DNA of 29,311 bases from a virus, in IMG/VR virus record IMGVR_UViG_3300010379_000036, positions 1 through 29,311 of that record, one strand, 5' to 3'. Below are positions 5,929 to 26,965 of this stretch, piece by piece (position 1 is the first letter of the stretch; each line of letters starts with the position of its first letter). The notes under the pieces are model-generated. The model ran no database searches, was not told the DNA's origin, and saw only the letters and a list, made by a program, of their open reading frames with translations. Made by a program: the position numbers and the translations under genes.

Positions 5929-5929
5929 C

Positions 5930-6971: not shown

Positions 6972-7041
6972 CCAGGAGGCAGGAACCAGGAGGCAGGAAC
7001 CAGGAATCATCCCTGACCCCTGTCTCCTGCCTCCTGTTCCC
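6972..7041. repeat. Palindromic CAGGNNN/CCTGNNN heptad element 1
   Basis: The left arm is five consecutive 7-mers starting CAGG (CAGGAGG CAGGAAC, twice, then CAGGAAT). The right arm is the complement class (CTGACCC CTGTCTC CTGCCTC CTGTTCC). It starts at the base after the small terminase stop and is followed by CCCTTTTTG, so it could act as a hairpin terminator or attenuator before the large terminase. Confidence 0.85.
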
Positions 7042-7050
7042 TTTTTGCAC

Positions 7051-8670
7051 ATGAGTATGGACAAGATCACCAAACAATGGATGCGCTCGGCCGCCGATGA
7101 GCGCGCCGTCGACGCCGGCTGCCGCTTCGATCTCCAGGCCGCCGATCGCGTCCGCCAGTTCGCCGCCAAGTTCTGCCGCCACGCCGAAGGCCAGTTCGCC
7201 GGCAAGCCCTTCGAGCTGTTCGATTGGGAATGGCTGGACGTGGTCGGCCCGCTCTACGGCTGGAAAGATGCGGCCGGCATCCGCCGTTACTCGAAGTTTG
7301 CCGGCTGGGTTCCCAAAAAACAGGGCAAGAGCAGCCTGGCCGCCGTGCTCATCGTCTACATGCTGCTGGCCGACGGCGAGGCAGCCGCGGAAATCTATGG
7401 GGCAGCGCGCGATCGTGGCCAGGCAGGCGTCGTGTTCAAAGTCGTCCAGAACATGGTCAACCAGTCTCCGGCCCTGCTCCAATACCTGAAGGTAATTCCC
7501 AGTGTCAAGCGCATCGTTTTCGAGCAACGGGCCAGCTTCTATACCGTGCTGTCGGCGGAGGCGCGCAAGACCGGCCACGGCGTCAACGGCCATTTCGCCG
7601 TCATCGACGAGCTGCACGTCGTTACGGCCGAACTCTACAACACGCTGCGTTACTGCGGCGCCTCGCGCCGCCAGCCGATCTTTTTCGAGATCTCGACCGC
7701 AGGCAACGACAAGACGTCCCTCGGCTACGAACGCTACCTCTACGCGAAGAGCGTGCGTGATGGCAGCAACACGGACGATACCCGCCTGCTCGTCTACATC
7801 ACCGAAGCGGATGGCAACGACGTATGGGAAGATGAAAAGCAGTGGCGCAAAGCCAACCCCTCCCTCGGCCACACGATTGCCCTGGACAAGTTCCGCGCGG
7901 ACTTCAGCGAAGCCAAGAACGGCACGCCCAGCGACCGCGCCGCCTTCCGCCAGCTCCGCCTCAACATCTGGCAGGATGCTACCAGCGGCTACTTCGACAT
8001 GCAGCAATGGGACGCCTGCGGCCGCTTCGCCGTCTCTCTGGAAGCCCTCCACGATCGCGATTGCTACGGCGGCCTCGATCTCGCCAACACGCTCGACATG
8101 ACTTGCTTCGCGCTCGCCTTCCCCGATGAAGACGGCGGCTATACCTTGCTGCTCTGGTGCTGGGTCCCCGAGGACATCAACCAGGAGCGCGAACGCACCA
8201 ACCGCCGCACCTATTACGACTGGATTCAACAGGGGCTGATCCGCAAGACCGAGGGCGACGAGCTCGACTATGCGCGCGTCCGCCGCGATGTCCGGGAGAT
8301 CGGCGAGCACCACAACATCAAGTCCATCGGCTACGACCCGTGGAACGCCGGCCAGATCGCCCAGGAGCTCCAGTCGGACGGCTTCGTGATGGAAAAAGTC
8401 CCACAATGCATCGCCAATTTCAACGAAGCGCTGGTGGCGATGTCCCGGCTGCTCAAAGCCGGCACGCTCCGCCACGGCGCCAACCCCGTGCTGCGCTGGA
8501 TGGCCGGCAACACCGTCGTCCGCGCCGATGGGCTAGGCTGCGTGATGCCCGCCCGCAAAAAGTCCACGGACAAAATCGATGGCATCGTTGCCGAGGCCAT
8601 GGCCATCGGCCAGGCCATCGGCAAGACCAAAGACGATGACTGGTACGAACCGGGCATGTTGAGAGATTAG
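7051..8670 (+). CDS. Phage terminase large subunit
   Basis: This is the DNA-packaging motor. Of 539 residues, the N-terminal ATPase carries the Walker A-like motif WVPKKQGKSSLAA near residue 90, Walker B HFAVIDELH near 190 and a coupling segment FFEISTAGND near 215. The C-terminal RNase H-like nuclease shows YGGLDLANTLDMTCFAL near 345, with the first metal-binding Asp, IGYDPWNAGQIAQEL near 425 and the final acidic STDKIDGIVAEAMA near 510. The order and length fit HK97/lambdoid-type large terminases of the Terminase_1 family. The start is uncertain: TTG 7045, ATG 7051 and ATG 7057 are in frame and none has a clear ribosome site; ATG 7051 was chosen. The frame is intact. Confidence 0.94.
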   Translation: MSMDKITKQWMRSAADERAVDAGCRFDLQAADRVRQFAAKFCRHAEGQFAGKPFELFDWEWLDVVGPLYGWKDAAGIRRYSKFAGWVPKKQGKSSLAAVLIVYMLLADGEAAAEIYGAARDRGQAGVVFKVVQNMVNQSPALLQYLKVIPSVKRIVFEQRASFYTVLSAEARKTGHGVNGHFAVIDELHVVTAELYNTLRYCGASRRQPIFFEISTAGNDKTSLGYERYLYAKSVRDGSNTDDTRLLVYITEADGNDVWEDEKQWRKANPSLGHTIALDKFRADFSEAKNGTPSDRAAFRQLRLNIWQDATSGYFDMQQWDACGRFAVSLEALHDRDCYGGLDLANTLDMTCFALAFPDEDGGYTLLLWCWVPEDINQERERTNRRTYYDWIQQGLIRKTEGDELDYARVRRDVREIGEHHNIKSIGYDPWNAGQIAQELQSDGFVMEKVPQCIANFNEALVAMSRLLKAGTLRHGANPVLRWMAGNTVVRADGLGCVMPARKKSTDKIDGIVAEAMAIGQAIGKTKDDDWYEPGMLRD

Positions 8671-8687
8671 GGGATAGGGGCCACGCC

Positions 8688-8903
8688 GTGATTATCAGTT
8701 GCCTGTTCGGCCGGGAGGCCATCGCCCTGGTGGCGTCCTATCTCCACGAACGGGCGCCCACAACCTTGGTCGGCCTACTGGCCGCCGAGGACCACGATGG
8801 CCAATTGCCCCTAGGCGTTACAATCGCGTGGTCCTTCGGCACGCCCCCCATGCACGTGGCCCGCGACATCGCCACCTGCTTCGCGGGCGAGGTGAAGAAG
8901 TAG
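8688..8903 (+). CDS. Hypothetical protein, 71 residues
   Basis: A GTG at 8688, 17 bases after the terminase stop, opens a frame to TAG 8901-8903. The product, MIISCLFGREAIALVASYLH then ERAPTTLVGLLAAEDHDGQL, has an amphipathic N-terminal helix and ends FAGEVKK. Upstream is AGGGGATAGGGG, a purine-rich tract rather than a clean ribosome site. Codon use fits the neighbouring genes, but the start is uncertain. No family is recognised. Small genes at this place between terminase and portal often code HNH or connector factors, yet no such motif is visible. Confidence 0.45.
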   Translation: MIISCLFGREAIALVASYLHERAPTTLVGLLAAEDHDGQLPLGVTIAWSFGTPPMHVARDIATCFAGEVKK

Positions 8904-8931
8904 AACAGGAGCAAACGGAGGAAGCGGCGAT

Positions 8932-9222
8932 ATGCGCGTTGGGATCATAAAGACGAGTCCGGAACTGACCCAGCAGGTAATCGATGCGCTGCCCAACGAT
9001 TGGGAGTTGCTTGGCAAGCGAACAGGCTGGCCGCAGTTGCAAGGCAAGGTCGGCCTCAAACTCCGTTGCGACTGCTTTGATGACGTGCCGGATAATACCC
9101 TCGATAAGGACCTTCCCATCTATGGCACGATTTTCTTCAATTCGCTCGGCATTGCAGTGTTCGAATCTTTGGCCGAGGAATCCAAGCAGGAAAGCTGGCG
9201 CGACCGGCCGCCGCTCTTGTAG
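8932..9222 (+). CDS. Hypothetical protein, 96 residues
   Basis: ATG 8932 follows ACGGAGGA by about ten bases. The product begins MRVGIIKTSPELTQQVIDAL and continues PNDWELLGKRTGWPQLQGKV, GLKLRCDCFDD and PIYGTIFFNSLGIAVFESLA. The predicted fold is mixed alpha/beta with a single Cys-x-Cys. I do not recognise the family. The good ribosome site and plus-strand placement between terminase and portal make it likely to be a real late gene of the element; its third-position composition is less GC-biased than that of the terminase, which may point to separate acquisition. Confidence 0.55.
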   Translation: MRVGIIKTSPELTQQVIDALPNDWELLGKRTGWPQLQGKVGLKLRCDCFDDVPDNTLDKDLPIYGTIFFNSLGIAVFESLAEESKQESWRDRPPLL

Positions 9223-9435
9223 CATAATCCGCATGCATGGGCCCTCGTCGAGATTGTCCCCGAGTCTGAGGCCGCACTTTGGACGCGGGACGCACACGGT
9301 CGCACCGTGGTTTCGCCGGGGGCCCACCCTCCGTTGCCTCCGTTTCCTCCTGTTCAATCTGCTCTACTGATCCCAGACGCGAGAGCGTCGCGCCCGCGCG
9401 TAGCTACGTGACGGGAAGGGAACGAGGCCCCATCC
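9223..9435. other. 213-base intergenic region with a hairpin and a shared repeat fragment
   Basis: No gene is supported here. CACGGT-CGC-ACCGTG at 9295-9309 is a perfect six-pair stem with a three-base loop. Near 9360-9385 the string CTGATCCCAGACGCGAGAGC closely matches CTGATTCCTAGACGCGAGAG near 21800, where both are preceded by CTGCTCT or similar. This is a further dispersed repeat family with two copies in the window. Confidence 0.5.
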
Positions 9436-9696
9436 ATGAGAGCCCTTGCCGCCAAGCTGCTTGCGCGCGCCCGCGACATCGTTCGCCGGCGTTGGCCTCC
9501 GCTACGGCGCCTGCTCCTGCTCGCTTCCCAACTCCTCACACTCCGCGACTACCTGGGCCTGGCCGCCCTGGCCGGCATGATCGCCGGCTGGTGGATGATC
9601 TGGCCCGCTCTCGGTCTCATTATCCCCTGCACGATCCTGTTCGCACTGGTGACCCACAGCCGCCTCCGGGAGGAGGGGCGCGGCGAGAGGGACTAG
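9436..9696 (+). CDS. Small membrane protein, 86 residues
   Basis: ATG 9436 is preceded by GGGAAGGGAACGAGG, a plausible though imperfect ribosome site. The N-terminal 30 residues are strongly basic (KLLARARDIVRRRWPPLRRL). Then come two hydrophobic segments, YLGLAALAGMIAGWWMIW and ALGLIIPCTILFALV, and an Arg/Glu-rich tail. The pattern fits a two-pass inner-membrane protein with a positive cytoplasmic N-terminus. Placed just before the portal it could be a holin-like or assembly factor, but no lysin is nearby and holins normally lie elsewhere, so this is only a possibility. The stop codon is immediately followed by a heptad element. Confidence 0.55.
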   Translation: MRALAAKLLARARDIVRRRWPPLRRLLLLASQLLTLRDYLGLAALAGMIAGWWMIWPALGLIIPCTILFALVTHSRLREEGRGERD

Positions 9697-9822
9697 GAGT
9701 CAGGAGCCAGGAATCAGGACTCAGGAGACAGGAGTCAGGGGTCAGGAATCACTGCTGCCTCCTGCCTCCTGATTCCTGCCTCCTAATTCCTGCCTCCTGA
9801 TTCCTGACGCCTGCCTCCTGCC
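9697..9822. repeat. Palindromic heptad element 2
   Basis: Left arm heptads (AGGAGTC AGGAGCC AGGAATC AGGACTC AGGAGAC AGGAGTC...) run to about 9750. The hinge is AATCACTGCTG, and the right arm (CCTGCCT CCTGATT CCTGCCT CCTAATT CCTGCCT CCTGATT CCTGACG) runs to 9821. It is among the longest copies and fills nearly the whole gap before the portal gene. Confidence 0.88.
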
Positions 9823-9837
9823 GTTCGCCCCTAAACC

Positions 9838-12246
9838 ATGCTCGATCTGATCTACGGCCGGCCCAAACCGAAAGCCTTCTACGCCGACTGGCAGCCGATG
9901 GGCAGCGGCTTCTCGCGCTACTGGTGGGGCGGCCAGATGCGCACCCAGGCCGGCGTCGTCGTCGACCACGGCCTGGCCCTCACCCTGGCCGCCGTCTGGT
10001 GCGCCACGCGCATCCTCTCCGAAATCCCGTCGATGCTGCCGTTCAACCTCTACGAACGGCTGCCCGATGGCGGCAAGCGCATCGCCCTCGATCACGAAAT
10101 CCACCACATCGTGAGCTGCCAGCCCAACCAATCGATGACAGCCATGCCGTTCTGGGAATCGCGGGCCGCCCACACCGTCAACTGGGGCAACGGCTTCGCC
10201 GAGATCGTCCGCGATCGCCGCGGCAACCTGGCCGAGCTGCACCCGATCCACCCCAGCCGCGTCAAGCCGCGCAAGAAGGCCGATACGGAAGTCTCGGCCG
10301 AATTCCCCTACCTGGTGCGCAACAACGATGGCTCGGAAACGCCGATGCGCGCCGACGAGATCCTGCACATCCCCGGCTGCATCAGCGAGGAGGGCATGTG
10401 GGGCAAGGGCTGCATCCCCTATGCCCGCGAGGATACGGGCACGGGGCTCGCCATGGGCCGCCATTCGGCCACCTACTTCAGTTCCGGCGCCACAGCCCGC
10501 GGCGTGCTCAAGGTCCCCGGCATGAAGGACCGCGATGCGCGCGCCAGTTTCCGCGCCGAATGGAAGGATGTGCACGGCTCCCCGGATTCCGGCGAAGTGA
10601 TCCTCCTGCCTCCGGAAGCGGATTTCACGCAGATCTCGATCTCCAACGAAGCCAGCCAGTTCCTCGAGAGTCGCAAGTTCAACGTCGAAGAGATCTTCTG
10701 CCGCTGGTACCGGCTGCCCGCCCACTTCGCCGGCCTGCTCGATAAAGCCTCGTATGCCTCGATCGAGATGCAGTCCCTCGAGTTCGTCGTCTACGGCCTC
10801 ATGCCCTGGCTGATCCGCAAGGAGCAGCATTGCAACTGGAAGCTGCTCACGCCCGAGGAGCGCAAGACCTACTTCTTCGAGCACGAGCTCACCGGCCTGC
10901 TGCGCGGCGATTTCGAAACCAGGATGAGGGGCTACCAGATCGCCCTGGGCATTGGCATCCTGTCGATCAACGAGGTCCGCCGCCTGGAAAACCGCGAAGT
11001 CCTGCCCGCCGAGCTCGGCGACGTGCACTTCGTGCCAGGCAACTGGACCACCGTCGAAAGGATGGTCTCCGGCCAGCTCGGCGCTGGCGACGACGCCGCC
11101 GGCCTACTACCGGCGCCCGCCGGCTCATCGGTCCCATCGGTCCCATCCGTCTCATCGCTCGCCTGGGGCGATCTCAAAGACAACGATCAAGCCCTCCCCT
11201 ACCCCGACGTCCCCCAAAAGGACAATTACAGTTGCGGCGCCGCCATCTCCATGTCCGTCGGTGGTCTCTTCAAGGTCGGTCCGAAAACCCTCGAGGAATG
11301 GAAAACCGCCCTGGGCACCACGGTGGAGCACAGCACCGAGCCGATGCGCATCGTGGAGTACTTCACCGAGCTGGGCCTGGCCGTCACGGCTTGCCACGAC
11401 CTCACCATCGACGATCTGCGCGCAGCCTGGCGGCAGGGCAAGGCCTCGATCTGTCCCATCCAGGAGTACGGCGTCCCCAGCAAACAGGCCAGCTTCAATT
11501 ACGGCCATTACGTCGGGGTCGCCGCGGTCTGGCCCGGTTTCGTGCAGGTGCAGGATCCGTCGATCGACAATGTGCTCAAAGGCCAGGACGCCGACCAGGC
11601 CCCCGGCCAGATGGTGATCGATTACCAGAGGTGGAACGCCGGCTGGCACGATGAGGACTGGCGGAAGAAGCAGTTCGTGCATTTCGCGATCATGATCGGC
11701 CGCCGCGCCGTGGATGCCGAAGACGACGACGATGAGGATGATGGAACAGGAGGCAACAAAGGAAACGGAGAGAAGGAGAAAGGGGATTCCAATGGGAACG
11801 GAACAAAAAATACCAGCGGAGGTAACAACGACGGCAAATCCGCTCCTAATAGCAACACTGCCGCCACCGCCGCCGCTGCTCAACGTCAAGGCGTACAGGC
11901 GGTCCTTGCAGATGTCCTGGGCCGCATGTTTGGGAAAGAGTCAAAGCAGGCAGCGCGGGCGGCGGCAGCTAAGGGGCAGGGCCTCGAAGCGTGGCTAGCC
12001 GGCTTCTATCCAGCTCATCGCGCCAATTTGCTCACTGCCCTGGAAGCCCCCGCCCTCCTCATGCGCAGCCAGGGCCAGCCGATCAACACCCAGGCGATCG
12101 CCGACGCCATCACGACCGAATCGATGGGCCTCTTGCGGGACATGTACAATCGAGACACCCGCGCCCAGTTCGCCGCCAAGCTGGAAACCTGGCCCACGGA
12201 ACGCGCCCAGGCCTGGGCCGAGAAAATCCTGAAAGGGGAGCTATAA
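9838..12246 (+). CDS. HK97-type portal protein with embedded C39-like cysteine peptidase domain
   Basis: At 802 residues this is about twice the usual 400-450 of HK97 portals. Residues 1 to about 415 are the portal core (LAAVWCATRILSEIPSMLPF, NWGNGFAEIVRDRRGNLAEL, KFNVEEIFCRWYRLPAHFAG, YASIEMQSLEFVVYGL). Residues about 450-620 read as a C39-type papain-like peptidase: NYSCGAAISM with Cys466 and an N/Q-x-x-C-G-A context, NYGHYVGVAAVW with His557, and VQVQDPS with Asp573, in the correct order and spacing. An acidic-then-Gly/Asn linker (about 625-682, lower GC) leads to a helical C-terminal region ending WAEKILKGEL. Portals form the dodecameric DNA gate. The peptidase could process head proteins or cell-wall peptides. 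An S49 protease gene follows, so the element has two proteases. One continuous frame, no intein motifs. Confidence 0.9.
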   Translation: MLDLIYGRPKPKAFYADWQPMGSGFSRYWWGGQMRTQAGVVVDHGLALTLAAVWCATRILSEIPSMLPFNLYERLPDGGKRIALDHEIHHIVSCQPNQSMTAMPFWESRAAHTVNWGNGFAEIVRDRRGNLAELHPIHPSRVKPRKKADTEVSAEFPYLVRNNDGSETPMRADEILHIPGCISEEGMWGKGCIPYAREDTGTGLAMGRHSATYFSSGATARGVLKVPGMKDRDARASFRAEWKDVHGSPDSGEVILLPPEADFTQISISNEASQFLESRKFNVEEIFCRWYRLPAHFAGLLDKASYASIEMQSLEFVVYGLMPWLIRKEQHCNWKLLTPEERKTYFFEHELTGLLRGDFETRMRGYQIALGIGILSINEVRRLENREVLPAELGDVHFVPGNWTTVERMVSGQLGAGDDAAGLLPAPAGSSVPSVPSVSSLAWGDLKDNDQALPYPDVPQKDNYSCGAAISMSVGGLFKVGPKTLEEWKTALGTTVEHSTEPMRIVEYFTELGLAVTACHDLTIDDLRAAWRQGKASICPIQEYGVPSKQASFNYGHYVGVAAVWPGFVQVQDPSIDNVLKGQDADQAPGQMVIDYQRWNAGWHDEDWRKKQFVHFAIMIGRRAVDAEDDDDEDDGTGGNKGNGEKEKGDSNGNGTKNTSGGNNDGKSAPNSNTAATAAAAQRQGVQAVLADVLGRMFGKESKQAARAAAAKGQGLEAWLAGFYPAHRANLLTALEAPALLMRSQGQPINTQAIADAITTESMGLLRDMYNRDTRAQFAAKLETWPTERAQAWAEKILKGEL

Positions 12247-12261
12247 AAGCGCCTCTTCATA

Positions 12262-12468
12262 GACAGGCGGCAGGATACAGGAATCAGGAGACAAGCATCA
12301 GGCATCAGGAGCCAGGCATCACTGACTCCTGCCCCCTGCCTCCTGACTCCTGGACTGCCCCCTGATCCCTGCCCCCTGACCGCTGTTCCTCCATTCCCTC
12401 CTGTCCACGAATGCAGGAGGCAGGGGGCAGGAGTCACTGATACCTGACTCCCGATCCCTGACTCCTAT
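12262..12468. repeat. Two adjacent palindromic heptad elements (3a, 3b)
   Basis: Element 3a has left heptads from 12262 to about 12319 (CAGGCGG CAGGATA CAGGAAT CAGGAGA...), hinge GCATCACTGAC, and right heptads to about 12387. Element 3b has left heptads at 12413-12436 (CAGGAGG CAGGGGG CAGGAGT), hinge CACTGA and right heptads to 12468. Together they fill the portal to protease gap. Confidence 0.87.
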
Positions 12469-12483
12469 TCAAAGGAGCCGCTC

Positions 12484-13398
12484 ATGCCCCCGGCAACATC
12501 CACCAAGCTCTGGCTCGCCGATCACCAGTTCCTCGCCGGCGCCTCGCTGCGGCTGCGCAACCTGCACGCTCTGCCCTGCCAGGCCGAAATCGACGAGGCC
12601 CGCGTCAAGGCCGCCGCCAAGCAGCTCCGCCTCGCCGCCGGCAAGGTCGCCGTCATTCCCATCCAGGGCGTGATCGAACAGAAGATGTCGCTGTGGGGCT
12701 GGCTGTTCGGCGGCTGCTCGACCGAGGATACCGCCGCCGCCCTGCACATGGCCCTGGCCAGCAAGGACTGCGGCGCCATCGTTCTCGACGTCGATTCCCC
12801 CGGCGGCGAAGTCTACGGGGTCCAGGAGCTGGCCGATCAGATTTTCGCTGCCCGCAGCGTCAAGCCGGTGCATGCCATCGCCAACAGTTGCATGGCCTCG
12901 GCCGCCTACTGGCTCGGCTCCTGCGCCGCGCAGGTCTGCGCCAGCCCCGGGGCCGACGTTGGTTCTGTCGGCGTCTACACCGTGCACGAGGATTGGTCGG
13001 GCGCCTACGGCGAAGCCGGCGTCAAGTGCACGATCGCCAAGACCCCGAAAAATAAGGCCGAATTCAACGACCTGGAACCGCTCTCCGACGACGATGAGGA
13101 GCGCCTGCAGGAAATCGTCAAAGGCGTCTACGAGAAATTCGTGAAGGCCGTCGCCCGCAACCGCGGCGTCCCCCCCTCCGACGTGCGCAGCAAATACGGC
13201 AACGGCCGCCTCCTCAAAGCCGACGAAGCGCTCTCCGCCGGCATGATCGACAAGATCATGACCATGAGCGATCTGCTGGACCGCCTCACGGGAGGGGCGA
13301 GAGGCGAGGGATCAGGGCTCAAGGGTCAGGGGACCAGCATGGAGGTCCTCCGCTTGCGGCATCAGGTCGCAAAAGATAGAAAGTGCCGTAGTATGTAG
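12484..13398 (+). CDS. S49-family (SppA-like) phage head maturation protease
   Basis: ATG 12484 lies eight bases after AAAGGAG. The 304-residue protein has KVAVIPIQGVIEQK (54-67), VLDVDSPGGEVYG (100-112, oxyanion-loop region) and NSCMASAAYWLGS, with the predicted nucleophile Ser139 in M-A-S-A-A-Y. Lys191 (TPKNKAEF) is 52 residues downstream, the spacing of the Ser/Lys dyad in SppA. VGSVGVYTVHEDWSGAYGEAGV and ERLQEIVKGVYEKFVKAVAR follow as in the family. In phages this enzyme, placed between portal and capsid, cleaves the scaffold or capsid N-terminal domain during head maturation. The last 35 residues (after DLLDRLTGG) are encoded by a heptad-repeat fragment and end in a TAG contributed by another repeat, so the natural C-terminus was probably replaced. 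Confidence 0.92.
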   Translation: MPPATSTKLWLADHQFLAGASLRLRNLHALPCQAEIDEARVKAAAKQLRLAAGKVAVIPIQGVIEQKMSLWGWLFGGCSTEDTAAALHMALASKDCGAIVLDVDSPGGEVYGVQELADQIFAARSVKPVHAIANSCMASAAYWLGSCAAQVCASPGADVGSVGVYTVHEDWSGAYGEAGVKCTIAKTPKNKAEFNDLEPLSDDDEERLQEIVKGVYEKFVKAVARNRGVPPSDVRSKYGNGRLLKADEALSAGMIDKIMTMSDLLDRLTGGARGEGSGLKGQGTSMEVLRLRHQVAKDRKCRSM

Positions 13399-13418
13399 CA
13401 CAAGCTGATAGCTTGTGC
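13398..13418. repeat. GCACAAGC...GCTTGTGC palindrome, copy 1
   Basis: GCACAAGC-TGATA-GCTTGTGC forms an eight-pair stem. The flanking TAG (13396-13398) is the stop codon of the protease gene. A half copy (GGCTTGTGCTACA) occurs at 13529-13541 inside the following micropeptide frame. Full copies lie at 21197, 26515 (two, inverted) and 29197. Confidence 0.85.
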
Positions 13419-13441
13419 GCCGCTCCCCGGAGGATCGAGCA

Positions 13442-20109: not shown

Positions 20110-20112
20110 TCG

Positions 20113-20185
20113 CGTTTAACCGCCGGCCCTCAGGGCCGCGCGAACTTATAGCCCAGGTTGACGCGCGGGCCTGAGGCCCTGCGGC
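20113..20185. repeat. GTTTAACCGC...GGGCCGCGCG repeat, copy 1 plus inverted partial copy
   Basis: CGTTTAACCGCCGGCCCTCA then GGGCCGCGCG occupies 20113-20142, containing the GGCCCTCAGGGCC palindrome. At 20160-20185 a partial inverse (GCGCGGGCCTGAGGCCCTGC) follows, so the two halves can pair with each other. Together they fill the whole gap before the head closure gene. Confidence 0.85.
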
Positions 20186-20190
20186 AAAAC

Positions 20191-20571: not shown

Positions 20572-20607
20572 GGGATGAGGGAACAGGGGCTAGGGGATAG
20601 GGCCGAG

Positions 20608-20637
20608 CGTTTAACCGCAGGCCCTCAGGGCCGCGCG
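20608..20637. repeat. GTTTAACCGC...GGGCCGCGCG repeat, copy 2
   Basis: This copy matches the consensus of the family (CGTTTAACCGCAGGCCCTCA then GGGCCGCGCG) exactly and ends 15 bases before ATG 20653. It is preceded at 20572-20602 by G-rich GGGAACAGGGG and GGGGATAGGG, a half element of the heptad type. Confidence 0.88.
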
Positions 20638-20652
20638 CAACCGAAAGCAACC

Positions 20653-21195
20653 ATGGAAATCGCCGGTTTCAAGATCGAAGCCAAGCTGATCGGCACGGAT
20701 GAGCTGCGCGCCCGCCTGGCCCGCCTCGACGACAATGTCCGCAAGAAAGCCCTCAAGACGGCGCTGAACAAAGGCGAGGTCGAGATCCTCAAAGTCGCCC
20801 GGCGGCTGGTACCTGTTTCCGACCCGGAAAAGGATCCCGAGCTCGAGGCAGGCCTGCTCAAGAAAGCCCTTGGCATCAAGGTCAAGACCTACAATTCCGG
20901 CATCATTGTCGCGATCATGGGCGCCCGCGGCGGTTTTAAACGCAACCGCCAAACGAAAGAAACCCAGCGACTCTTCTCGCGCGAGATCCGCACGATCAAG
21001 CAAGCCCGCACCGGCATCCTCGGCCGCCTCGGCCTGAAGCGCAAGATCGTCGAACGCCAGACGCCGATGTACTACGCTCATCTGGCCGGCCCGGGCCGGG
21101 AGCAAACCTTCATGACCCTGGCCGCCGAACAAGGCGCCGCCGCGGGCCAGAAGGCAGTATTAGATACGCTAATAAAGGCGGCGAATGAGGGGTGA
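20653..21195 (+). CDS. HK97 gp10-like tail/neck protein
   Basis: ATG 20653 begins MEIAGFKIEAKLIGTDELRA; the frame extends upstream to 20575 only through repeat sequence. The 180 residues follow the gp10-like order: an N-terminal beta hairpin (KIEAKLIGTDELRARLARLD), helix (VRKKALKTALNKGEVEILKV), ARRLVPVSDPEK, LKKALGIKVKTY, and MYYAHLAGPGREQTFMTLAA, with the conserved Y-x-x-x-x-x-x-G motif, then QKAVLDTLIKAANEG. Members form the tail terminator or neck of HK97-like phages. It has no strong ribosome site. The middle insertion (RGGFKRNRQTKETQRLFSRE) is longer and more basic than usual. Its TGA is one base from a CACAAGC palindrome. Confidence 0.85.
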   Translation: MEIAGFKIEAKLIGTDELRARLARLDDNVRKKALKTALNKGEVEILKVARRLVPVSDPEKDPELEAGLLKKALGIKVKTYNSGIIVAIMGARGGFKRNRQTKETQRLFSREIRTIKQARTGILGRLGLKRKIVERQTPMYYAHLAGPGREQTFMTLAAEQGAAAGQKAVLDTLIKAANEG

Positions 21196-21196
21196 T

Positions 21197-21223
21197 GTAG
21201 CACAAGCCGATGGCTTGTGCTAC
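21197..21223. repeat. GCACAAGC...GCTTGTGC palindrome, copy 2
   Basis: GTAGCACAAGCCGAT then GGCTTGTGCTAC is a near-perfect palindrome. It lies wholly between the stop at 21195 and ATG 21235, leaving 11 bases for ribosome binding. Confidence 0.9.
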
Positions 21224-21234
21224 GAATGCGAACC

Positions 21235-21651
21235 ATGGAAAAGATCCTCATCCAATTCCTGCTGGCCAACGCCCAAATCACGGGCCTGGCCAGCGGTCAG
21301 AACCTCCAGCCTCTCGCCGAGGATCAGGACTTGCCTCCCCCCTACATCGTCGTGCAAATGGTCAAGGGCCGGCGCACCACGACGCAAAAGGGCGCCGAAG
21401 GCACGCGCTTCCTGCACTTCTTTTTGATCTGTCACGGCACGACGCCCAAACAGGCCTCCGACATCCTCGAGGCGCTCGCTGCGATCGTCGATTGCGAAAG
21501 CGGCACGGTGACCGTCGATGCCGTCACCTACACGATCCGCGGCATCTTCGTGGAAGACGAAGAAACCGATTTCGACCCCCCGGTGCACGGCGACCAGGTC
21601 GGGGATCCTTCGGCGCACAAGCTCCTGTTGATGGTCAGCGAACCCCAGTAG
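21235..21651 (+). CDS. Tail completion protein, DUF3168-like
   Basis: The 138-residue product starts at ATG 21235 (MEKILIQFLLANAQITGLAS). Two upstream ATGs in frame (21217 and 21229) fall in or beside the repeat. DQDLPPPYIVVQMVKGRRTT corresponds to the conserved P-x-x-x-Y-I-V-x-x-x-V of DUF3168 proteins, and FLHFFLICHGTTPKQASDIL then EALAAIVDC to the strand plus helix of the fold; the C-terminus ends with a strand KLLLMVSEP. This family caps or terminates the siphovirus tail tube at the head end. Placement just after the gp10-like gene and before the tail tube is the standard order. Confidence 0.8.
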   Translation: MEKILIQFLLANAQITGLASGQNLQPLAEDQDLPPPYIVVQMVKGRRTTTQKGAEGTRFLHFFLICHGTTPKQASDILEALAAIVDCESGTVTVDAVTYTIRGIFVEDEETDFDPPVHGDQVGDPSAHKLLLMVSEPQ

Positions 21652-21779
21652 GCAGGAGTCGGGAGTCAGGCATCAGGAGTCAGGCATCAGGAATCAGGAG
21701 TCAGGAATCAGGAGTTAGGAGGCAGGGGTCAGTGATTCCTGTCCCCTGCCTCCTGTCCCCTGACTCCTGTCCCCTGCCG
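21652..21779. repeat. Palindromic heptad element 11
   Basis: The left arm runs for about ten heptads (CAGGAGT CGGGAGT CAGGCAT CAGGAGT CAGGCAT CAGGAAT CAGGAGT CAGGAAT CAGGAGT TAGGAGG CAGGGGT). The hinge is CAGTGATTCC, and the right arm runs six or more heptads. CCCCTTTTTGCTCTG follows at 21787, as after element 1. The remainder to 21894 has an AGACGCGAGAGC repeat fragment and no gene. Confidence 0.88.
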
Positions 21780-21894
21780 CATCCTCCCCTTTTTGCTCTG
21801 CTGATTCCTAGACGCGAGAGCCAGCGGTGTAGACGTCTGCACTCCCCCATTCCCTCGCCCCGCGCCCCTGTTCCCTCAGCCCTACACCACTGCC

Positions 21895-22323
21895 ATGCTC
21901 ATCGGCCTCGGCTGCGATTGTCAGATCAGCGTCAACCAGGGCGGCACCTATCAATCGATGGGCCTGATTCAGGATTTCGACCTCCCGGCGCCGGCCGGCA
22001 CCAAGGTCCTCAAATCCTGGATGCTGCAGCCCGATCTCTGGGAGCGCAACCGCCCCGGCATGATCGACCCGGGCGAGCTGCAGGAGACGTTCATTTTCTC
22101 GGCGGCCATGGCCGCCAACATCCTGAGCTGGTTGATGGTCGAGGACAGCTACTTCCTGTTCATTTTCAGCGACAAGACGCCGATCCAGACGCACGGCACC
22201 GAATGGGCTTTCCTCGGCTTCATCATGAAACCCTGGGGCGGCAAGGTGGCCATGAAAGAGGGCATCACGCAATCGCTGACGATCGCCCTCTCCGGTCCGA
22301 TCTCGATCACCCCAGCGGCGTAA
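21895..22323 (+). CDS. Major tail tube protein
   Basis: ATG 21895 opens MLIGLGCDCQISVNQGGTYQ. The 142 residues follow the siphovirus tube order: N-terminal strand, SMGLIQDFDLPAPAGTKVLK (strand plus loop), LWERNRPGMIDPGELQETFI, with the conserved P-G-M-I-D-P-G-E-L that precedes the F-x-F strand, then ILSWLMVEDSYFLFIFSDKT and WAFLGFIMKPWGGKVAMKEG ending SLTIALSGPISIT. The closing T-x-x-x-L-x-x-x-G is typical of TP901-1/lambda gpV-like tubes. No ribosome site is obvious before the ATG (CCTACACCACTGCC). The gene is intact and located directly upstream of tail chaperone genes. Confidence 0.78.
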   Translation: MLIGLGCDCQISVNQGGTYQSMGLIQDFDLPAPAGTKVLKSWMLQPDLWERNRPGMIDPGELQETFIFSAAMAANILSWLMVEDSYFLFIFSDKTPIQTHGTEWAFLGFIMKPWGGKVAMKEGITQSLTIALSGPISITPAA

Positions 22324-22329
22324 GGGATT

Positions 22330-22359
22330 CGTTTAACCGCAGGCCCTCAGGGCCGCGCG
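22330..22359. repeat. GTTTAACCGC...GGGCCGCGCG repeat, copy 3
   Basis: This consensus copy starts seven bases after the tube stop and runs into GAGGGA, a possible ribosome site for the next gene at 22372. Confidence 0.9.
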
Positions 22360-22371
22360 AGGGACTCGGAT

Positions 22372-22650
22372 ATGCCGGTTTGCAACAAGCTCGTCAAAAG
22401 CATCGACCTGGCCAGCTCTAAACTCGTGCTTACCCACCGCGAGCCACCCCCGCCCCACGACATCGACTATGACCTCTCCGAGCTCGACCGCGAGCATGTT
22501 CTGGTCTTCGGCGCTCCCGACGTCCTCGAATCCGTCAAACCCGGCTTCGAATGCCATGTCGAGTTCGAGGAGGAAAACGGCATCAAATACGTGGTCGCCC
22601 TCACGGCCATCGCTCCCGTACAGGCGACCAGGCACAAGCGGCGGAAGTGA
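22372..22650 (+). CDS. Hypothetical tail-region protein, 92 residues
   Basis: ATG 22372 follows CGAGGGACTCGG. The protein is MPVCNKLVKSIDLASSKLVL, then DLSELDREHVLVFGAPDVLE, VKPGFECHVEFEEENGIKYV and a basic end ATRHKRRK. Its charge pattern (acidic middle, Lys/Arg end) and alternating strands suggest a small beta protein. It lies between tube and chaperone genes, where tail assembly accessory proteins are common. No family is recognised. Its stop is followed by a heptad element of a different sequence class (AGTAGAC). Confidence 0.58.
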   Translation: MPVCNKLVKSIDLASSKLVLTHREPPPPHDIDYDLSELDREHVLVFGAPDVLESVKPGFECHVEFEEENGIKYVVALTAIAPVQATRHKRRK

Positions 22651-22742
22651 GTAGACAGTAGACAGCAAACAATCGCGCCCGCCGTCTACTGTCTACTGAT
22701 CTACTGCCTACTCGTTTAACCGCAGGCCCTCAGGGCCGCGCG
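22651..22742. repeat. AGTAGAC heptad palindrome followed by GTTTAACCGC repeat copy 4
   Basis: GTAGACAGTAGACAG (22651-22665) faces GTCTACTGTCTACTGATCTA and CTGCCTACT (22684-22711). It has 7-bp period and inverted arms like the CAGGNNN elements but a different unit. The fourth copy of the CGTTTAACCGCAGG family occupies 22713-22742. The gene at 22771 has its own GGAGGAA site after it. Confidence 0.87.
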
Positions 22743-22770
22743 GACCCTTTCCCCTGGAGGAATCCCAACG

Positions 22771-23181
22771 ATGCGCAAACGCGACGCCCTGAAAGGCCGG
22801 CCCGAGAAACTTGCCACCGAGCAGGTGCCCACGCCCGAATGGGCCGACGTCGGCATCGCCGACATGACCATCCGGGAAATGACCTCCCTCGAGCTCGATC
22901 GCTGGCAGATGGACTGCCACGAAAAGAAACGCAAGAAACTGGGCGGCAAACTCGCCTTCCGGGCCTCGGCCATTGTCCGCTGCGCCCTGGACGACGACGG
23001 CAGCAAAATGTTCCAGGAGAGCGACGCCAGCTGGCTGGCGCTCAAGGGCGCCTCGGTAATCTCGCGGATCTTCGCCGCCATCCGCCGCCTCAACAACCTG
23101 GACGACGACGACAGCGAGGACGGGACGCCGGAAAAAAACCCCTCCGCGAGCGACACCTCCGGCGCTTCGGCTACCGGCTAG
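22771..23181 (+). CDS. Tail assembly chaperone, G-type short product
   Basis: ATG 22771 follows CTGGAGGAATCCC. In the 136-residue product the N-terminal half reads MRKRDALKGRPEKLATEQVP then IADMTIREMTSLELDRWQMD, with the chaperone-like T-x-R-E-M-T-S-x-E-x-D/R core. RKKLGGKLAFRASAIVRCAL, CALDDDGSKMFQESDASWLA and SVISRIFAAIRRLNN complete it, the pattern of phage tail assembly chaperones (lambda gpG-like). After an acidic DDDDSEDG stretch comes PEKNPSAS, coded across a slippery heptamer. The zero-frame tail (SDTSGASATG) is low-complexity. The protein chaperones the tape measure protein while the tube is built. Confidence 0.82.
   Translation: MRKRDALKGRPEKLATEQVPTPEWADVGIADMTIREMTSLELDRWQMDCHEKKRKKLGGKLAFRASAIVRCALDDDGSKMFQESDASWLALKGASVISRIFAAIRRLNNLDDDDSEDGTPEKNPSASDTSGASATG
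23133..23139 (+). promoter_or_regulatory. Programmed -1 ribosomal frameshift site A_AAA_AAC
   Basis: In the zero frame of the gene at 22771 the codons are GAA AAA AAC from 23131. The heptamer A-AAA-AAC is the canonical X-XXY-YYZ slippery sequence, and the -1 frame beyond it is open for 119 codons to TAG 23493-23495. A stem (GGCGCT near 23159 with AGCGCTGG near 23182) begins about 20 bases downstream and could stimulate slippage, though the spacer is longer than usual. Confidence 0.8.
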
Positions 23182-23495
23182 CGCTGGCCGTGCACCGCCT
23201 CGATGTCGACGAGGTGATGGACAGCCTGTCGGTAAAGAAGCTCCGCGAGTGGCAGCATTACGAATGCCTGGAGCCCTTCGGCGCCCGCCGCGACGATTAC
23301 CGCATCGGCGTGCTGATCAGCCTGATCGGCAGCCTGCTCGGGCTCGAGGTGACTCCGGCGGAGATCTTCCCGGAGCTAGCGCCAGGCAAGCAATGCCGCC
23401 CACGGCGCCCGCGGCGGCCGCGCTCGCGGCGCCGGCTGAAAATCGCCCAATCCTTGTTGTTGGGTTTCGTGCAAATGACCGATGGACACGGCTAG
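23139..23495 (+). CDS. Tail assembly chaperone T-type extension, made by -1 frameshifting as a G-T fusion
   Basis: This -1 frame extension adds PLRERHLRRFGYRLALAVHR, then LDVDEVMDSLSVKKLREWQH and YECLEPFGARRDDYRIGVLI to the first 123 residues of the gene at 22771, a fusion of about 241 residues. R-F-G-Y-R-L-A-L-A, L-R-E-W and L-E-P-F-G-x-x-R-D-D are characteristic of the second tail chaperone gene of lambda-like phages (T, or gpGT). No start codon with a ribosome site serves this frame alone before the T domain; GTG and ATG codons in the 23190-23220 area are internal to it. The Arg-rich part (RRPRRPRSRRRLKI) near the end is unusual. Frameshifted production of a minor G-T fusion is required for tail assembly in lambda. 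Confidence 0.78.
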   Translation, partial: PLRERHLRRFGYRLALAVHRLDVDEVMDSLSVKKLREWQHYECLEPFGARRDDYRIGVLISLIGSLLGLEVTPAEIFPELAPGKQCRPRRPRRPRSRRRLKIAQSLLLGFVQMTDGHG

Positions 23496-23496
23496 G

Positions 23497-23574
23497 AGAC
23501 ACGAGTCAGGAAACAGGGATCAGGAGACAGGGATCAGGAAAAAGTGATTCCTGACTCCTGACTCCTGTCTCCTC
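23497..23574. repeat. Palindromic heptad element 12
   Basis: Left arm AGGAGAC ACGAGTC AGGAAAC AGGGATC AGGAGAC AGGGATC AGGAAAA, hinge AGTGATTCC, right arm CCTGACT CCTGACT CCTGTCT CCTCTGA. The tape measure start codon follows at 23582 with no separate ribosome site. Confidence 0.88.
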
Positions 23575-23581
23575 TGATCAC

Positions 23582-25324
23582 ATGGCAGCATCGATCGGCA
23601 GTCTGGCCTATAAGCTCACCGCGGACCCGACCGGGTTCGAAGGCGGCATCAGCCGCGCCATGAAGGCCGTCGACAAGTTCGCCCTGCAGGTCGGTAAAGG
23701 CTTCGCCTCGATCCCCAATGCCCTCGGCAAAATCGCCACGGCGCCGTTCAACGTGGTCCAGGGCATCCTCGGCCCCATCCAAAGCGCTCTCTCCGGCATC
23801 CCGGTCATCGGCGGCCTGCTGGCGGCGATCCCGCTCTCCGGAGTCGGTTTCCTGGCCTTCATGAAACAAGGCATCGCCCACATTCAGGAGCTCGTGCTCT
23901 GGTCCAGGCGCCTGCATGTTGCCACGGAGGATATCGGCGGCGTCTTCAACTTCTTTGGCGAGTCGATCGGCGCGCTCGACAAGGCGATGGTGAAATTCTC
24001 CGTGCAATTGAGCATGGCGCAGGGCGGCTCCGCGGCCGCGCGGCGCATGTTCGAGGGACTCGGCCTAAGTTGGCAAGCGCTCGCCAAGCAGGCGCCGCTG
24101 GACCAGCTCCGTAGCATCATGGATCATTTGGCGGCCATTCCGAATCCTGCCGACCGCGCGCGCGTCGGCACACAGCTCTTCAGCCGTGCTTATGCCGAGC
24201 TCGCGCCCGCGCTGGAGCGCGGCAGCAAGGCTATGGACAGCGTGATCGAGAAGAACAAGCTGCTAGGCGGCTCTTTTTCGGAGGCCCAAGGCGCCCTAGT
24301 TCTCCAGGCGGCCAAAGCATTCAAAGACATCGAGCTCGCCGTGCGCGGCCTGCAACAAAACCTTGCCATCGTCGCGGCCGGGCCGCTCGTCACGATCAAT
24401 GAGCTCCTGACGAAGTTCGTCACCAAGACAGAAGGCATCGCAGGGATCTTTACGACCATCGAAACCGCGGCGCGGAAGGTTTTCCGCTTCATTGGCAATG
24501 CCATTGGCGAGCTGATCGAGGAAATCAAAAAGCTCATGGACGATATACGGGGCCAGACGCCGAAGGGCATGATCGCCGATGCCGCGAGCGGTAAAGGGCT
24601 GCTCGGCCGCATCTTCAATCCGGTAGCATACGGCATGGCCGCGGAGGCCGCCGCGCAAAACCCCGCCGGCAAGGGCCCTGGATTAGGCGACCGGGCACTC
24701 GATGCCATGGACGATTGGATCGGCGGCCTGATGACGAAGGCAAAGAAATGGTTGGAGGGCGACTCAGGCGAGAAAAACGCCTTCAATCCCCGCTTTCAGA
24801 AGCAGCTAGACATTGCCGACACGCTGCGGTCTCCGCTGGCTGCCTTCCGCGCCGAAATGGAGAATCTCAATGGAATATTCCTGACCGCCCAGGAACGGGG
24901 CGAAACCTACGCCGGGGCCGTGCAAAAGACCAAGGACGCCTTCAGCTCGGCACTCGGGATCAAATTCAAATCGCCTCTGGACGAACTGTTCGACAAGGCC
25001 GATCAATTGGGGAAAGCCGCTGACGACGCGCTGATCAGCGATACCGAGCGCTTCGCCGGCCTCGGCCAGCTCGGCGAAGGTCTGCTGAAAGATCAGGCCG
25101 AGGTCAAGCTGCCCAGCTTCATGACGCTCGGCAGCCAGGATTTCGCCGAGCTGCAGGCCAAGCTCGAGGGCCAGGGCGCCAACAGCGTCCAGGACCGCAT
25201 CGCCGCCATCATGGAAGAGCAAAAAGCCAAGATGGACGAACAGATCCGCATCGGCCAGGAAATCGCCCGCGCCATCCGCGACAAGCAACAAACGGTGATC
25301 AAACAGGCGCCGATCAATGATTGA
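23582..25324 (+). CDS. Tape measure protein
   Basis: ATG 23582 begins MAASIGSLAYKLTADPTGFE then GGISRAMKAVDKFALQVGKG, the typical N-terminus of tape measure proteins (A-D-x-x-x-F-x-x-x-I). Hydrophobic segments at about 47-98 (IPNALGKIATAPFNVVQGIL, GGLLAAIPLSGVGFLAFM) match the membrane-active region of the family. The rest is long amphipathic helix (KDIELAVRGLQQNLAIVAAG, AARKVFRFIGNAIGELIEEI, ENLNGIFLTAQERGETYAGA, QDRIAAIMEEQKAKMDEQIR). At 580 residues and roughly 1.5 angstrom per residue, the predicted tail would be about 87 nm. The gene sets tail length and passes DNA across the host envelope. It follows the G/T chaperones as in lambda-like phages. Confidence 0.87.
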   Translation: MAASIGSLAYKLTADPTGFEGGISRAMKAVDKFALQVGKGFASIPNALGKIATAPFNVVQGILGPIQSALSGIPVIGGLLAAIPLSGVGFLAFMKQGIAHIQELVLWSRRLHVATEDIGGVFNFFGESIGALDKAMVKFSVQLSMAQGGSAAARRMFEGLGLSWQALAKQAPLDQLRSIMDHLAAIPNPADRARVGTQLFSRAYAELAPALERGSKAMDSVIEKNKLLGGSFSEAQGALVLQAAKAFKDIELAVRGLQQNLAIVAAGPLVTINELLTKFVTKTEGIAGIFTTIETAARKVFRFIGNAIGELIEEIKKLMDDIRGQTPKGMIADAASGKGLLGRIFNPVAYGMAAEAAAQNPAGKGPGLGDRALDAMDDWIGGLMTKAKKWLEGDSGEKNAFNPRFQKQLDIADTLRSPLAAFRAEMENLNGIFLTAQERGETYAGAVQKTKDAFSSALGIKFKSPLDELFDKADQLGKAADDALISDTERFAGLGQLGEGLLKDQAEVKLPSFMTLGSQDFAELQAKLEGQGANSVQDRIAAIMEEQKAKMDEQIRIGQEIARAIRDKQQTVIKQAPIND

Positions 25325-25466
25325 CAGGAGACAGGGGGCAGGAGGCAGGGGCCAGGAGACAGCGGCCAGGAGACAGCGGTCAGGAGGCAGGGATCAGCAA
25401 TGATTTCTGACTCCTGACCCCTGAACCCTGTCTCCTGACCCCTGACTCCTGCTTCCTGACCCCTAC
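25325..25466. repeat. Palindromic heptad element 13
   Basis: Left arm CAGGAGA CAGGGGG CAGGAGG CAGGGGC CAGGAGA CAGCGGC CAGGAGA CAGCGGT CAGGAGG CAGGGAT. The hinge is CAGCAATGATTTC, and the right arm has about eight CCTGNNN units. It begins at the base after the tape measure stop and ends six bases before the next start. Confidence 0.88.
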
Positions 25467-25471
25467 GAATC

Positions 25472-26518
25472 ATGGGCATCTTGTCCGTACAAGAAATCTG
25501 GGATCAATCGCTGACCGGCGACCGCGATCAGCGCGGCCAGCGCCGCCGGCCGCGCGCCTTCCGCGTGCGCACCACCAGCCTGGCCGACGGCGAGGTCATC
25601 GTGCTGAGCGCCGTCGATCCGCTCACCGGCCTGACGATCCCCAACATCTTCGATCCCTATGTCGATGCCAACGGCCACACCGATCCGCAGGCCATCTGCG
25701 CTTCGGCCCAGCCCCATCTGCAACGCGATCCGCGCGAATGGCTCGTCATCTGCACATACTCGAACTTCGTCGAAGGCTCCGCCGAGATGGCCGCCCAGGG
25801 CTACATCCAGCCCAACCCGCTGCTGCGCCCCGCCATTCCGCACTGGGGCCGGGAAGAAGCCCGCTGCGTCGCCAATTACGATCTCGGCTACGTCGATCTG
25901 CATGATCCTACCCAGAACCTCGATGCCAGGGCCGTCAACAACTCGACCGGCCAGAAGTTTTCGCCGGCGAACGAGATCGAGGATCCGCGGTCGACGCTGG
26001 CGCTCACCTGGAACATTCCCGCGCCGCTGCTGTCCCTGTCGGACGGCGGTACCTCGATGACCGCCCTGGGGATCCTGCTCCAGTACCAGAACACGCTCAA
26101 CCTCGATACGTTCCTCACCTGCCTGCCGTCCACGGTGAAGTGCAAGACGATCGATCCGGGCGAGACCAGGTTCGAAGAGGGTATCTATTTCCAGCCGGTC
26201 ACTGCCCATTTCGCGTTCCGCTTCGACACGATCGAGCTCACCGACGACGCCGGCGGCACGCAAACGATCGTGGGCTGGGAGATCGACGAGTATGTGCCCG
26301 ACATCGGCTGGTACGTGCTGGACACCACGACAGGCAAACCGAAGAAATACGTCGACCCGACCGGGCTCAATCCGGGCGGTCCCTATCCGCTCAACGGCGC
26401 CGGCCAGGTGCTGGTGAATCCGGGCGGCGGCGCGCCGCAGCAGTTTTACTTCCTGCACTACTACTTCTCGAAACGCGGCTTCTTCGCCGACCTGATGGCG
26501 GGCGTGGTCCTGGTGTAG
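25472..26518 (+). CDS. Probable tail-tip structural protein, 348 residues
   Basis: ATG 25472 opens MGILSVQEIWDQSLTGDRDQ then RGQRRRPRAFRVRTTSLADG. The body is strand-rich (EVIVLSAVDPLTGLTIPNIF, RDPREWLVICTYSNFVEGSA, HFAFRFDTIELTDDAGGTQT, WEIDEYVPDIGWYVLDTTTG), with a Pro/Gly-rich segment near 305-325 and an aromatic end QFYFLHYYFSKRGFFADLMA. No enzyme motif or named tail family is recognised. The place directly after the tape measure suggests a distal tail or baseplate hub component. Its TAG stop (26516-26518) is part of a CACAAGC repeat, so the original C-terminus may have been altered. The start lacks an obvious ribosome site. Confidence 0.6.
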   Translation: MGILSVQEIWDQSLTGDRDQRGQRRRPRAFRVRTTSLADGEVIVLSAVDPLTGLTIPNIFDPYVDANGHTDPQAICASAQPHLQRDPREWLVICTYSNFVEGSAEMAAQGYIQPNPLLRPAIPHWGREEARCVANYDLGYVDLHDPTQNLDARAVNNSTGQKFSPANEIEDPRSTLALTWNIPAPLLSLSDGGTSMTALGILLQYQNTLNLDTFLTCLPSTVKCKTIDPGETRFEEGIYFQPVTAHFAFRFDTIELTDDAGGTQTIVGWEIDEYVPDIGWYVLDTTTGKPKKYVDPTGLNPGGPYPLNGAGQVLVNPGGGAPQQFYFLHYYFSKRGFFADLMAGVVLV

Positions 26519-26569
26519 CACAAGCCGATGGCTTGTGACGAACCTGCACAAGCCATCGGCTTGTGCTAC
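26515..26569. repeat. Inverted pair of GCACAAGC palindromes, copies 3 and 4
   Basis: GTAGCACAAGCCGATGGCTT then GTG (26515-26537) and GCACAAGCCATCGGCTTGTG then CTAC (26546-26569) are head-to-head inverse copies of one another. They can form either two small stems or one long 23-pair hairpin. The left copy contributes a stop codon; the right copy ends 12 bases before ATG 26582. Confidence 0.9.
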
Positions 26570-26581
26570 AGGGGAATGATC

Positions 26582-26875
26582 ATGGCACAAATCAAGCTGA
26601 AACTCGTCACTCTGCGGCCCATCGCCGGCCAGACCGTGCAGGAGGCCTCCCTGAACGTGGTGCAGGACGATACGCTCGCAGCCGGCGAGCGCCTGGCCCA
26701 GCAAAAAGCCTGGGGCATCCTCAAACTCGGTACCGACCATCCGTTGCTGGTGAACGCCAAAGTAGGCGATCACTTTCTGCTCGAGTTGACGCCAACAACG
26801 GCGCCGCCGGCACCGCCCGCGGCAGTGACACGCCGCTTGCCCCGGCGCCTGCGCACGAAACTACCGCAGGAGTAG
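26582..26875 (+). CDS. Small tail-region protein, 97 residues
   Basis: ATG 26582 was preferred over the in-frame start at 26528, which lies in the repeat, and over the ATG at 26576, six bases upstream. The product MAQIKLKLVTLRPIAGQTVQ then EASLNVVQDDTLAAGERLAQ and KVGDHFLLELTPTTAPPAPP has a compact beta-alpha start, a helix (AAGERLAQQKAWGILKLG) and a Pro-rich, basic C-terminal tail (VTRRLPRRLRTKLPQE). The function is unknown; it may be a tail chaperone or fibre accessory factor. Flanked by repeat families on both sides. Confidence 0.55.
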   Translation: MAQIKLKLVTLRPIAGQTVQEASLNVVQDDTLAAGERLAQQKAWGILKLGTDHPLLVNAKVGDHFLLELTPTTAPPAPPAAVTRRLPRRLRTKLPQE

Positions 26876-26965
26876 GTCAGGCAAGTAAACAGGAGACAGG
26901 AATCAGGAGTCAGGAATCAGAAGTCAGTGATTCCTGCTTCCTGACCCCTGACTCCTGACACCTGA
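26876..26965. repeat. Palindromic heptad element 14
   Basis: Left arm CAGGAGA CAGGAAT CAGGAGT CAGGAAT CAGAAGT, hinge CAGTGATTCC, right arm CTGCTTC CTGACCC CTGACTC CTGACAC CTGAG. AGAGG follows as a ribosome site for the gene at 26978. Confidence 0.88.

Follow-up and report, generated by a model that had tools for sequence, protein, structure and literature searches.

The window analysed here, the whole of the 29,311-base virus record IMGVR_UViG_3300010379_000036 of IMG/VR, comes from a tailed phage, and most gaps between its capsid and tail genes hold a degenerate palindrome built of 7-base units. We found 16 convergent arrays of this kind between positions 6973 and 26967 (elements E1 to E16), each with CAGGNNN units in its left arm and CCTGNNN units in its right arm; one lies within an open reading frame (ORF) and the others at gene junctions. 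The elements share an architecture, a fixed polarity and a place at gene ends; several families occur per phage, families replace one another, and sites filled in one phage are empty in another. We put the odds at about even (probability roughly 0.5) that they are non-coding palindromes which copying has spread into those gaps at gene ends where they are tolerated.

Heptad palindromes past stop codons

Core pairs in phase, CAGGNNNCAGG or CCTGNNNCCTG, numbered 116 in the window; 200 first-order shuffles gave 1.6 on average and 5 at most. Of these pairs, 106 were entirely noncoding. In noncoding DNA, identity at lags of 7, 14 and 21 bases was raised to 0.370, 0.354 and 0.347, the lag 7 value in coding DNA was 0.258, and the remaining lags stayed at background. 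A search for arrays of period 7 returned 26, control periods of 5, 6 and 8 returned none, and period 9 returned one. Two further contigs from the same metagenome, with one difference in 4,268 bases and none in 4,963, also carry the elements, which therefore do not stem from an assembly slip in one contig. These results bear out the original prediction of an intergenic family of palindromes, dispersed and strictly in heptad phase, including the 7-bp autocorrelation proposed as its test and its absence from the tightly packed operon at 900–6364, where we found no elements. All 16 predicted palindromes were recovered in place; the statement that they lie between virion genes fails for E7, which sits within an open frame and so is not intergenic. 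Gene calls in the window are simple open frames.

The unit is exactly 7 bp long with fixed and loose positions, as in convergent intergenic heptameric repeats. All 16 elements have arms on opposite strands with the G-rich arm first; their lengths range from 52 to 137 bp and their ends vary. Left-arm triplets are mainly AAT, AGT, AGA, AGG and GAT, and those of the right arm, taken from the G-rich strand, are AGT, GGT, AGG, AAT and GAT. A purine occupies unit position 5 in 92% and position 6 in 97%, and T occupies position 7 in 91 of 149 units, so that the variable positions, described earlier as mostly purines, are so at the first two and not at the third. Left arms are A-richer than right arms at position 6. 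The hinge, said to contain TCA-N-TGA in most copies, has that strict form in 7 of the 16 and the shorter CANTG in 14, and in 11 of the 16 the innermost cores are separated by 11 or 18 bases. Runs of GG in the cores are 5 nucleotides (nt) apart and GGG arises only when a triplet starts with G; the tracts of at least three G expected of quadruplexes are thus not a feature of the CAGG elements.

Placement followed the predicted course from a stop codon to near the next start. Among the 12 elements for which the distance was measurable, eight overlap a stop codon or start at most 1 nt from it, and nine lie within 6 nt. The first unit of E2, E9 and E14 incorporates a TAG stop, and E1, E5, E11, E13 and E15 begin 0–1 nt past one. 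The right arm ends 3–16 nt before the next start, where measurable.

Neighbouring units within an arm were identical in 4 of 115 cases, compared with about 15.7 expected when units were shuffled within runs, and none of 2000 shuffles fell that low. Units two apart were identical at a frequency of 0.247, against 0.138 expected, and a second way of reading the units gave the same picture of depletion. The arrays therefore have a 14-bp rhythm with no perfect tandem copies, and the near-identical head-to-tail units that define simple tandem heptamers (STRR) are not what we found. Elsewhere, in other genomes and viral contigs, identical neighbours were mildly enriched (0.194 versus 0.150–0.157), so their avoidance is a trait of this lineage and not of the element kind.

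Sister phage and other genomes

A sister phage (G001; loci L003 and L121–L123), a 51-kb contig from a different metagenome, could be aligned to the window gene by gene: its TerL is 85% identical in amino acids, and its coding DNA is mostly 80–87% identical in nucleotides (about 83%). It carries 49 heptad arrays, chiefly of the families AGTAGACAG, [TG]AGTGGN and [TG]AGGGGN. Both phages contain the same core families, in proportions that differ between them, the window holding a few arrays of the sister phage's families and the sister phage at least one CAGG array. At eight aligned junctions both phages have heptads, and the core family differs in all eight; at 19362–19446, for instance, different families occupy the same spot between conserved flanks. 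Heptads are present in the window only at four junctions (TerS-TerL, portal-protease, 13952–14093 and E7) and in the sister phage only at five aligned junctions. E7 splits the site AACCGC(C/G)TG-CCG(G/A)CAGCGCC, which is uninterrupted in the sister phage, and the sister phage's element at 13990–14080 is absent at window 9420–9440. The early operon, with genes that overlap or nearly touch, is free of elements in both. That different families stand at the same junctions indicates that elements are replaced much faster than the surrounding genes.

Two side observations concern the sister phage, with coordinates in window orientation. Short palindromes without heptads, CCTCGTTCCCAGGCTCTGCCTGGGAACG..., ACAGGTTTCCAACCTGT... 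and GGAGTGCGGCGGCTATACCGCCGC..., at ~16888–17045, 18940–18975 and 19722–19800, occupy junctions that hold CAGG elements in the window. At ~18280–18520 a GroES-like gene, absent from the window, follows the protease gene and is itself followed by a AGTAGACAG palindrome.

The elements are not confined to this assembly, as the original prediction had asked to be checked. The 3+3 CAGG pattern occurs in at least 117 stretches in named bacterial genomes, with up to 86 match starts per genome; the labels among the listed matches include Planctomycetes, Gemmatimonadetes, Pseudomonas, Alcanivorax, Chloroflexi, cyanobacteria, Acidobacteria, Bacteroidetes and others. In viral contigs the pattern was found in 43 stretches, and many loci there approach one array per kb with several cores. 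Across 30 listed genomes, 566 match starts had the G-rich arm first and one had the opposite order, a ratio that is biased because these genomes were chosen by the facing-order CAGG pattern; other cores in the same loci, which played no part in the choice, gave 38:1 for the facing order. Across phyla and cores alike, the G-rich arm comes first with almost no exception. At 80 genome loci, by crude ORF calls, the median distance was 3 nt from the stop codon and 29.5 nt from the start.

Arrays with AGKGG cores occur in 17 of 102 Gemmatales genomes, with largely species-specific triplets, and AGTAGACAG elements occur in 1 of 392 Planctomycetota genomes. Distant TerL relatives (L142–L146) had no arrays. 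A host search by TerL in the 102 Gemmatales genomes found nothing better than a partial match at 54%; going by the arrays most like those here, from the Gemmataceae loci L011, L043 and L072, our guess is that the host may be a planctomycete.

Origin and function

The elements represent a widespread, little-studied kind of intergenic repeat, consisting of two facing arrays of degenerate heptads with the G-rich arm first and a short hinge. We infer that whole elements were copied because of the filled and empty sites, the near-copies E5 and E6, the hinge motif common to 14 of the 16 and the expansion of CAGG in one of the two sister lineages. When elements were ranked as near-copies, E5/E6 came first, followed by E8/E10 and E8/E9. 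Copies would persist only where nothing is broken, that is, just past a stop codon and ahead of the next ribosome-binding site, and the copying agent would probably be the host's. For the phage, the most likely effect would be that of a tolerated intergenic spacer, which would alter RNA ends mildly at most.

Several points weigh against spread by copying. Beyond a possible TG at E7 we found no target-site duplication, and neither a donor nor a copying enzyme was found. Physical neighbours were not significantly more alike overall (P = 0.12), which leaves local copying by adjacency without support. The population contig of 4,268 bp differs from the window only at 20426, outside the elements, so no movement was caught. 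Copying alone does not explain the strict polarity and the 7-bp phase, and spread from host to phage was not observed directly.

One possibility, to which we lend limited credence, is that the palindromes act as RNA: once transcribed they would cap or separate messages as stabilisers, attenuators or Rho-related sites (the 3' arm is C-rich and G-poor), the hairpin being selected at each junction while its sequence drifts. Fold energies lie 2.1 to 9.5 standard deviations below those of dinucleotide shuffles (z -2.1 to -9.5), the elements stand directly past stop codons, and some palindrome is present in both phages at most shared junctions. However, one of the two phages has an empty gap at several junctions, and compensatory change, the mark of selection on a hairpin, was not seen. 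Triplet likeness between the two arms of one element (1.315 of 3) is if anything lower than that between elements (1.427 of 3), and chimeras with swapped arms fold equally well (-736 ± 21 versus -728 kcal/mol). The arms thus vary independently, and pairing at the variable positions is not what is kept; the core, the phase and the direction are. Some genomes even combine arms of different families in one element, as at G096:C110:54447-54516 in Gemmatales, where AGGGGTT forms the left arm and AGTGGAT the right; in the cyanobacterial loci L013 and L047, TGA/TGT triplets are paired with GAA. The antisense RNA of E1–E16 folds better in sum than the sense RNA (-814 versus -728 kcal/mol), which, together with the excess of A at position 6 of left arms, may reflect a strand-biased mutation pattern. 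Terminator-like sites in 7000–26990 numbered 15 compared with 16.5 in shuffles, and none of those listed lies within an element, so the terminator role suggested earlier finds no backing; counts of promoter-like sites were also at shuffle level, and we discarded both intrinsic terminators and promoters. Transcripts would form imperfect hairpins, and the fold as a selected trait is unsupported here.

It is somewhat less likely that the elements are protein-binding arrays, in which each heptad core would be bound by one subunit, for example of a ribbon-helix-helix protein, and only core and phase would be kept. By analogy, their role in the phage might resemble that of cluster A stoperators, and on a chromosome they might work like the Geobacter sites put forward as targets of a 'global regulator'. 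A unit with four fixed and three loose positions, the strict phase and the convergent arms all suit such binding, and avoidance of identical neighbours would guard an array against slippage. The ParB/omega protein of pSM19035 binds 7-bp WATCACW repeats with one dimer per repeat and has high affinity for direct or inverted (-><-) pairs (PMC9499535), and MTYCTGA heptad pairs in G. metallireducens have been interpreted as regulator sites (PMC2700814). Against this, cores differ between the sister phages and mix within one arm, and the many cores across phyla would require many proteins. Pfam assigned neither a ribbon-helix-helix nor any other DNA-binding family to the unassigned ORFs of the window; the sole candidate is a ParB-like protein by PHROGs.

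Polymerase slippage, which would make the arrays microsatellites grown in place, is improbable. That 7 nt favours slippage is a hypothesis of Mrazek, known here as cited in PMC4692102 and PMC4679880, and both the varying arm lengths and the mild enrichment of identical neighbours in other genomes and viral contigs agree with it. In the window, the depletion of identical neighbours and the enrichment of units two apart contradict slippage as the full cause, and with it the earlier remark that copy number varies as expected from slippage; facing arms, polarity and whole elements with a common hinge would also be left unexplained.

We regard as very unlikely an unrecognised activity that extends or copies DNA in steps of 7 nt, laying purine-rich units 5' to 3' from both sides of a gap until the two meet in an inward-facing join, a product that might be likened to a head-to-head telomere fusion. 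Such an activity would explain the polarity, the independence of the arms, mixed-family elements, the many cores and fast replacement at the same site. We found no enzyme for it, and the hinge common to most copies in the window speaks against independent end joining at each copy.

Hardly credible, finally, is that these are REP/BIME-like elements mobilised by a REP-associated tyrosine transposase (RAYT), a resemblance raised in the original prediction. The elements are short intergenic palindromes past stop codons, several of those in the sister phage start with GTAG and end with CTAC, and among Gemmatales genomes a Y1_Tnp gene is present in 15 of the 17 that have AGKGG arrays and in 51 of the 85 others (genome size not controlled). 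This association across genomes is weak and has no counterpart in position: around 33 Y1_Tnp genes in 32 Gemmatales loci, the 72 kb within 1 kb of a gene held 2 arrays (0.028 per kb) and the 234 kb beyond 1.5 kb held 9 (0.038 per kb). No RAYT gene flanked by an element was found in these 32 loci. REPs are 20–40 bp stem-loops tagged with GTAG or CGTC at one end (PMC3733652); the CAGG elements lack the GTAG tag, and the 16 depart from that form in their varied ends and greater length.

Further repeats, neighbouring genes and related systems

Arrays with other cores, which the original prediction had not included, also occur in the window, often directly 3' of a stop codon (Table 1). A motif near CGTTTAACCGCAGGCCCT(CAGGGC) is found at 20108–20180, 20606–20625 and 22712–22730 of the window and at ~12275–12290 of the sister phage (window orientation); it comes after heptad arrays or gene ends in both phages and is possibly a further repeat family. 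Nested palindromes around CCCAGGGT...ACCCTGGG fill about 220 bp at 15105–15323 and are 77% identical to 42444–42668 of the sister phage. Rfam gave no model match anywhere in the window.

Table 1. Heptad elements, arrays of other families and principal genes of the window
Feature	Position	Remarks
E1	6973–7039	5 CAGGNNN + 4 CCTGNNN; TerS-TerL junction; 1 nt past stop at 6971
E2	9694–9823	Upstream of portal; left arm opens TAGGAGT, its TAG being the stop codon
E3	12264–12381	Portal-protease junction, first of two
E4	12414–12467	Portal-protease junction, second of two; protease start 16 nt on
E5	13954–14005	1 nt past stop at 13952; hinge region near-identical to that of E6
E6	14042–14099	Near-copy of E5, ~90 bp downstream
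E7	14959–15043	Within open frame 14066–15079; site uninterrupted in sister phage
E8	16926–17013	Between major capsid protein gene and 17030
E9	17501–17556	First three bases of first unit are the TAG stop
E10	17742–17841	Few left units, 8 right units; hinge common to E8
E11	18762–18846	1 nt past stop at 18760; final unit CCTGGAG gives GGAG before ATG at 18851
E12	19362–19446	AGTAGACAG element at same position in sister phage
E13	21653–21779	Longest left arm of all; AGTGG arrays there in sister phage
E14	23493–23570	Upstream of tape measure gene; first unit includes TAG stop
E15	25325–25461	Immediately 3' of tape measure gene stop
E16	26890–26967	Final CAGG element
AGTGGCG-family array, C-rich arm	6428–6455	Ahead of likely true TerS start
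AGGGGNN half-array	~8666–8682	
AGGGGNN-family array	15075–15105	Half-array; directly past stop codon
AGGGGNN-family array	20568–20607	Half-array; gene junction
AGTAGACAG-family convergent palindrome	~22650–22713	Family frequent in sister phage
TerS	6369–6971	ORF
TerL	7045–8670	
Portal	9838–12246	
Protease	12484–13398	
Major capsid protein	15348–16919	
Connectors		Among genes flanking elements
Tape measure protein	23582–25324	

The true start of TerS is probably near 6470, since the sequence is homologous to the sister phage from 6457 onwards, with a heptad arm immediately upstream. In the early operon, 3050–4324 and 4695–5357 encode phosphoadenosine phosphosulfate reductase-like and ParB-like proteins. 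An ORF at 28178–29170 (-), on the strand opposite the phage genes, carries an N-terminal methylation motif of the prepilin type and matches GspH weakly; it may represent a moron or the boundary of the phage.

The element kind is already known, although the original prediction took it for possibly undescribed: convergent heptad pairs have been published for Xanthomonas and Geobacter. In Xanthomonas, G-rich heptads (GGGANTN)n form 70–75 convergent pairs in each genome, most of them between genes and close to the upstream ORF, and Nostoc has the heptad GGGGAYT (Rehm 2015, PMC4692102). These share with our elements the fixed and loose heptad positions, the intergenic setting and the closeness to the upstream ORF, and sister Xanthomonas species keep junctions while the repeats are altered. 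They differ in being chromosomal only, with none found on plasmids, in that one core per genome is described, and in that their GGG tracts are interpreted as quadruplexes, whereas here GG mostly prevails. Family replacement, arm independence and neighbour avoidance are not described there.

Geobacter metallireducens has eight pairs of arrays with five MTYCTGA heptads, described as class 3 'predicted global regulator binding sites' (Aklujkar 2009, PMC2700814). The arrays are likewise paired, CTGAMTY matches the common right-arm unit here (CTGACTC in CCTGACTCC), and at proBA a sister species has another conserved sequence in the same gap; the eight pairs lie on one chromosome and the regulator-site reading is itself a prediction. 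The TAACTGA repeats of Beggiatoaceae (MacGregor 2015, PMC4679880) are also many-copy intergenic heptamers, but they are direct, almost never inverted, and lie mostly just upstream of start codons. REP/BIME elements with RAYT (Di Nocera 2013, PMC3733652) resemble ours as short intergenic palindromes, mostly downstream of coding regions and in many phyla, and unlike ours have no heptad phase. The parS sites of pSM19035 (PMC9499535) likewise contain 7–10 consecutive 7-bp repeats but belong to a single defined centromere system at promoters. Stoperators of cluster A mycobacteriophages, dispersed protein sites able to silence a prophage (PMC6550527), are single, asymmetric and in one orientation.

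Relative to the open-access literature, what is new is that phages carry such elements densely, with about one array per kb, that sister phages have switched families at orthologous junctions, that the polarity holds generally for many cores and phyla, that the arms vary independently and that the arrays have a 14-bp rhythm. Heptad repeats are common in bacterial intergenic DNA. Two small, alignable phages provide a clean natural experiment on what is kept (phase, inward polarity and place) and what is not (core sequence and arm pairing). Because the pair carries dense arrays of different families at the same junctions, the origin of these elements becomes directly testable in small genomes.

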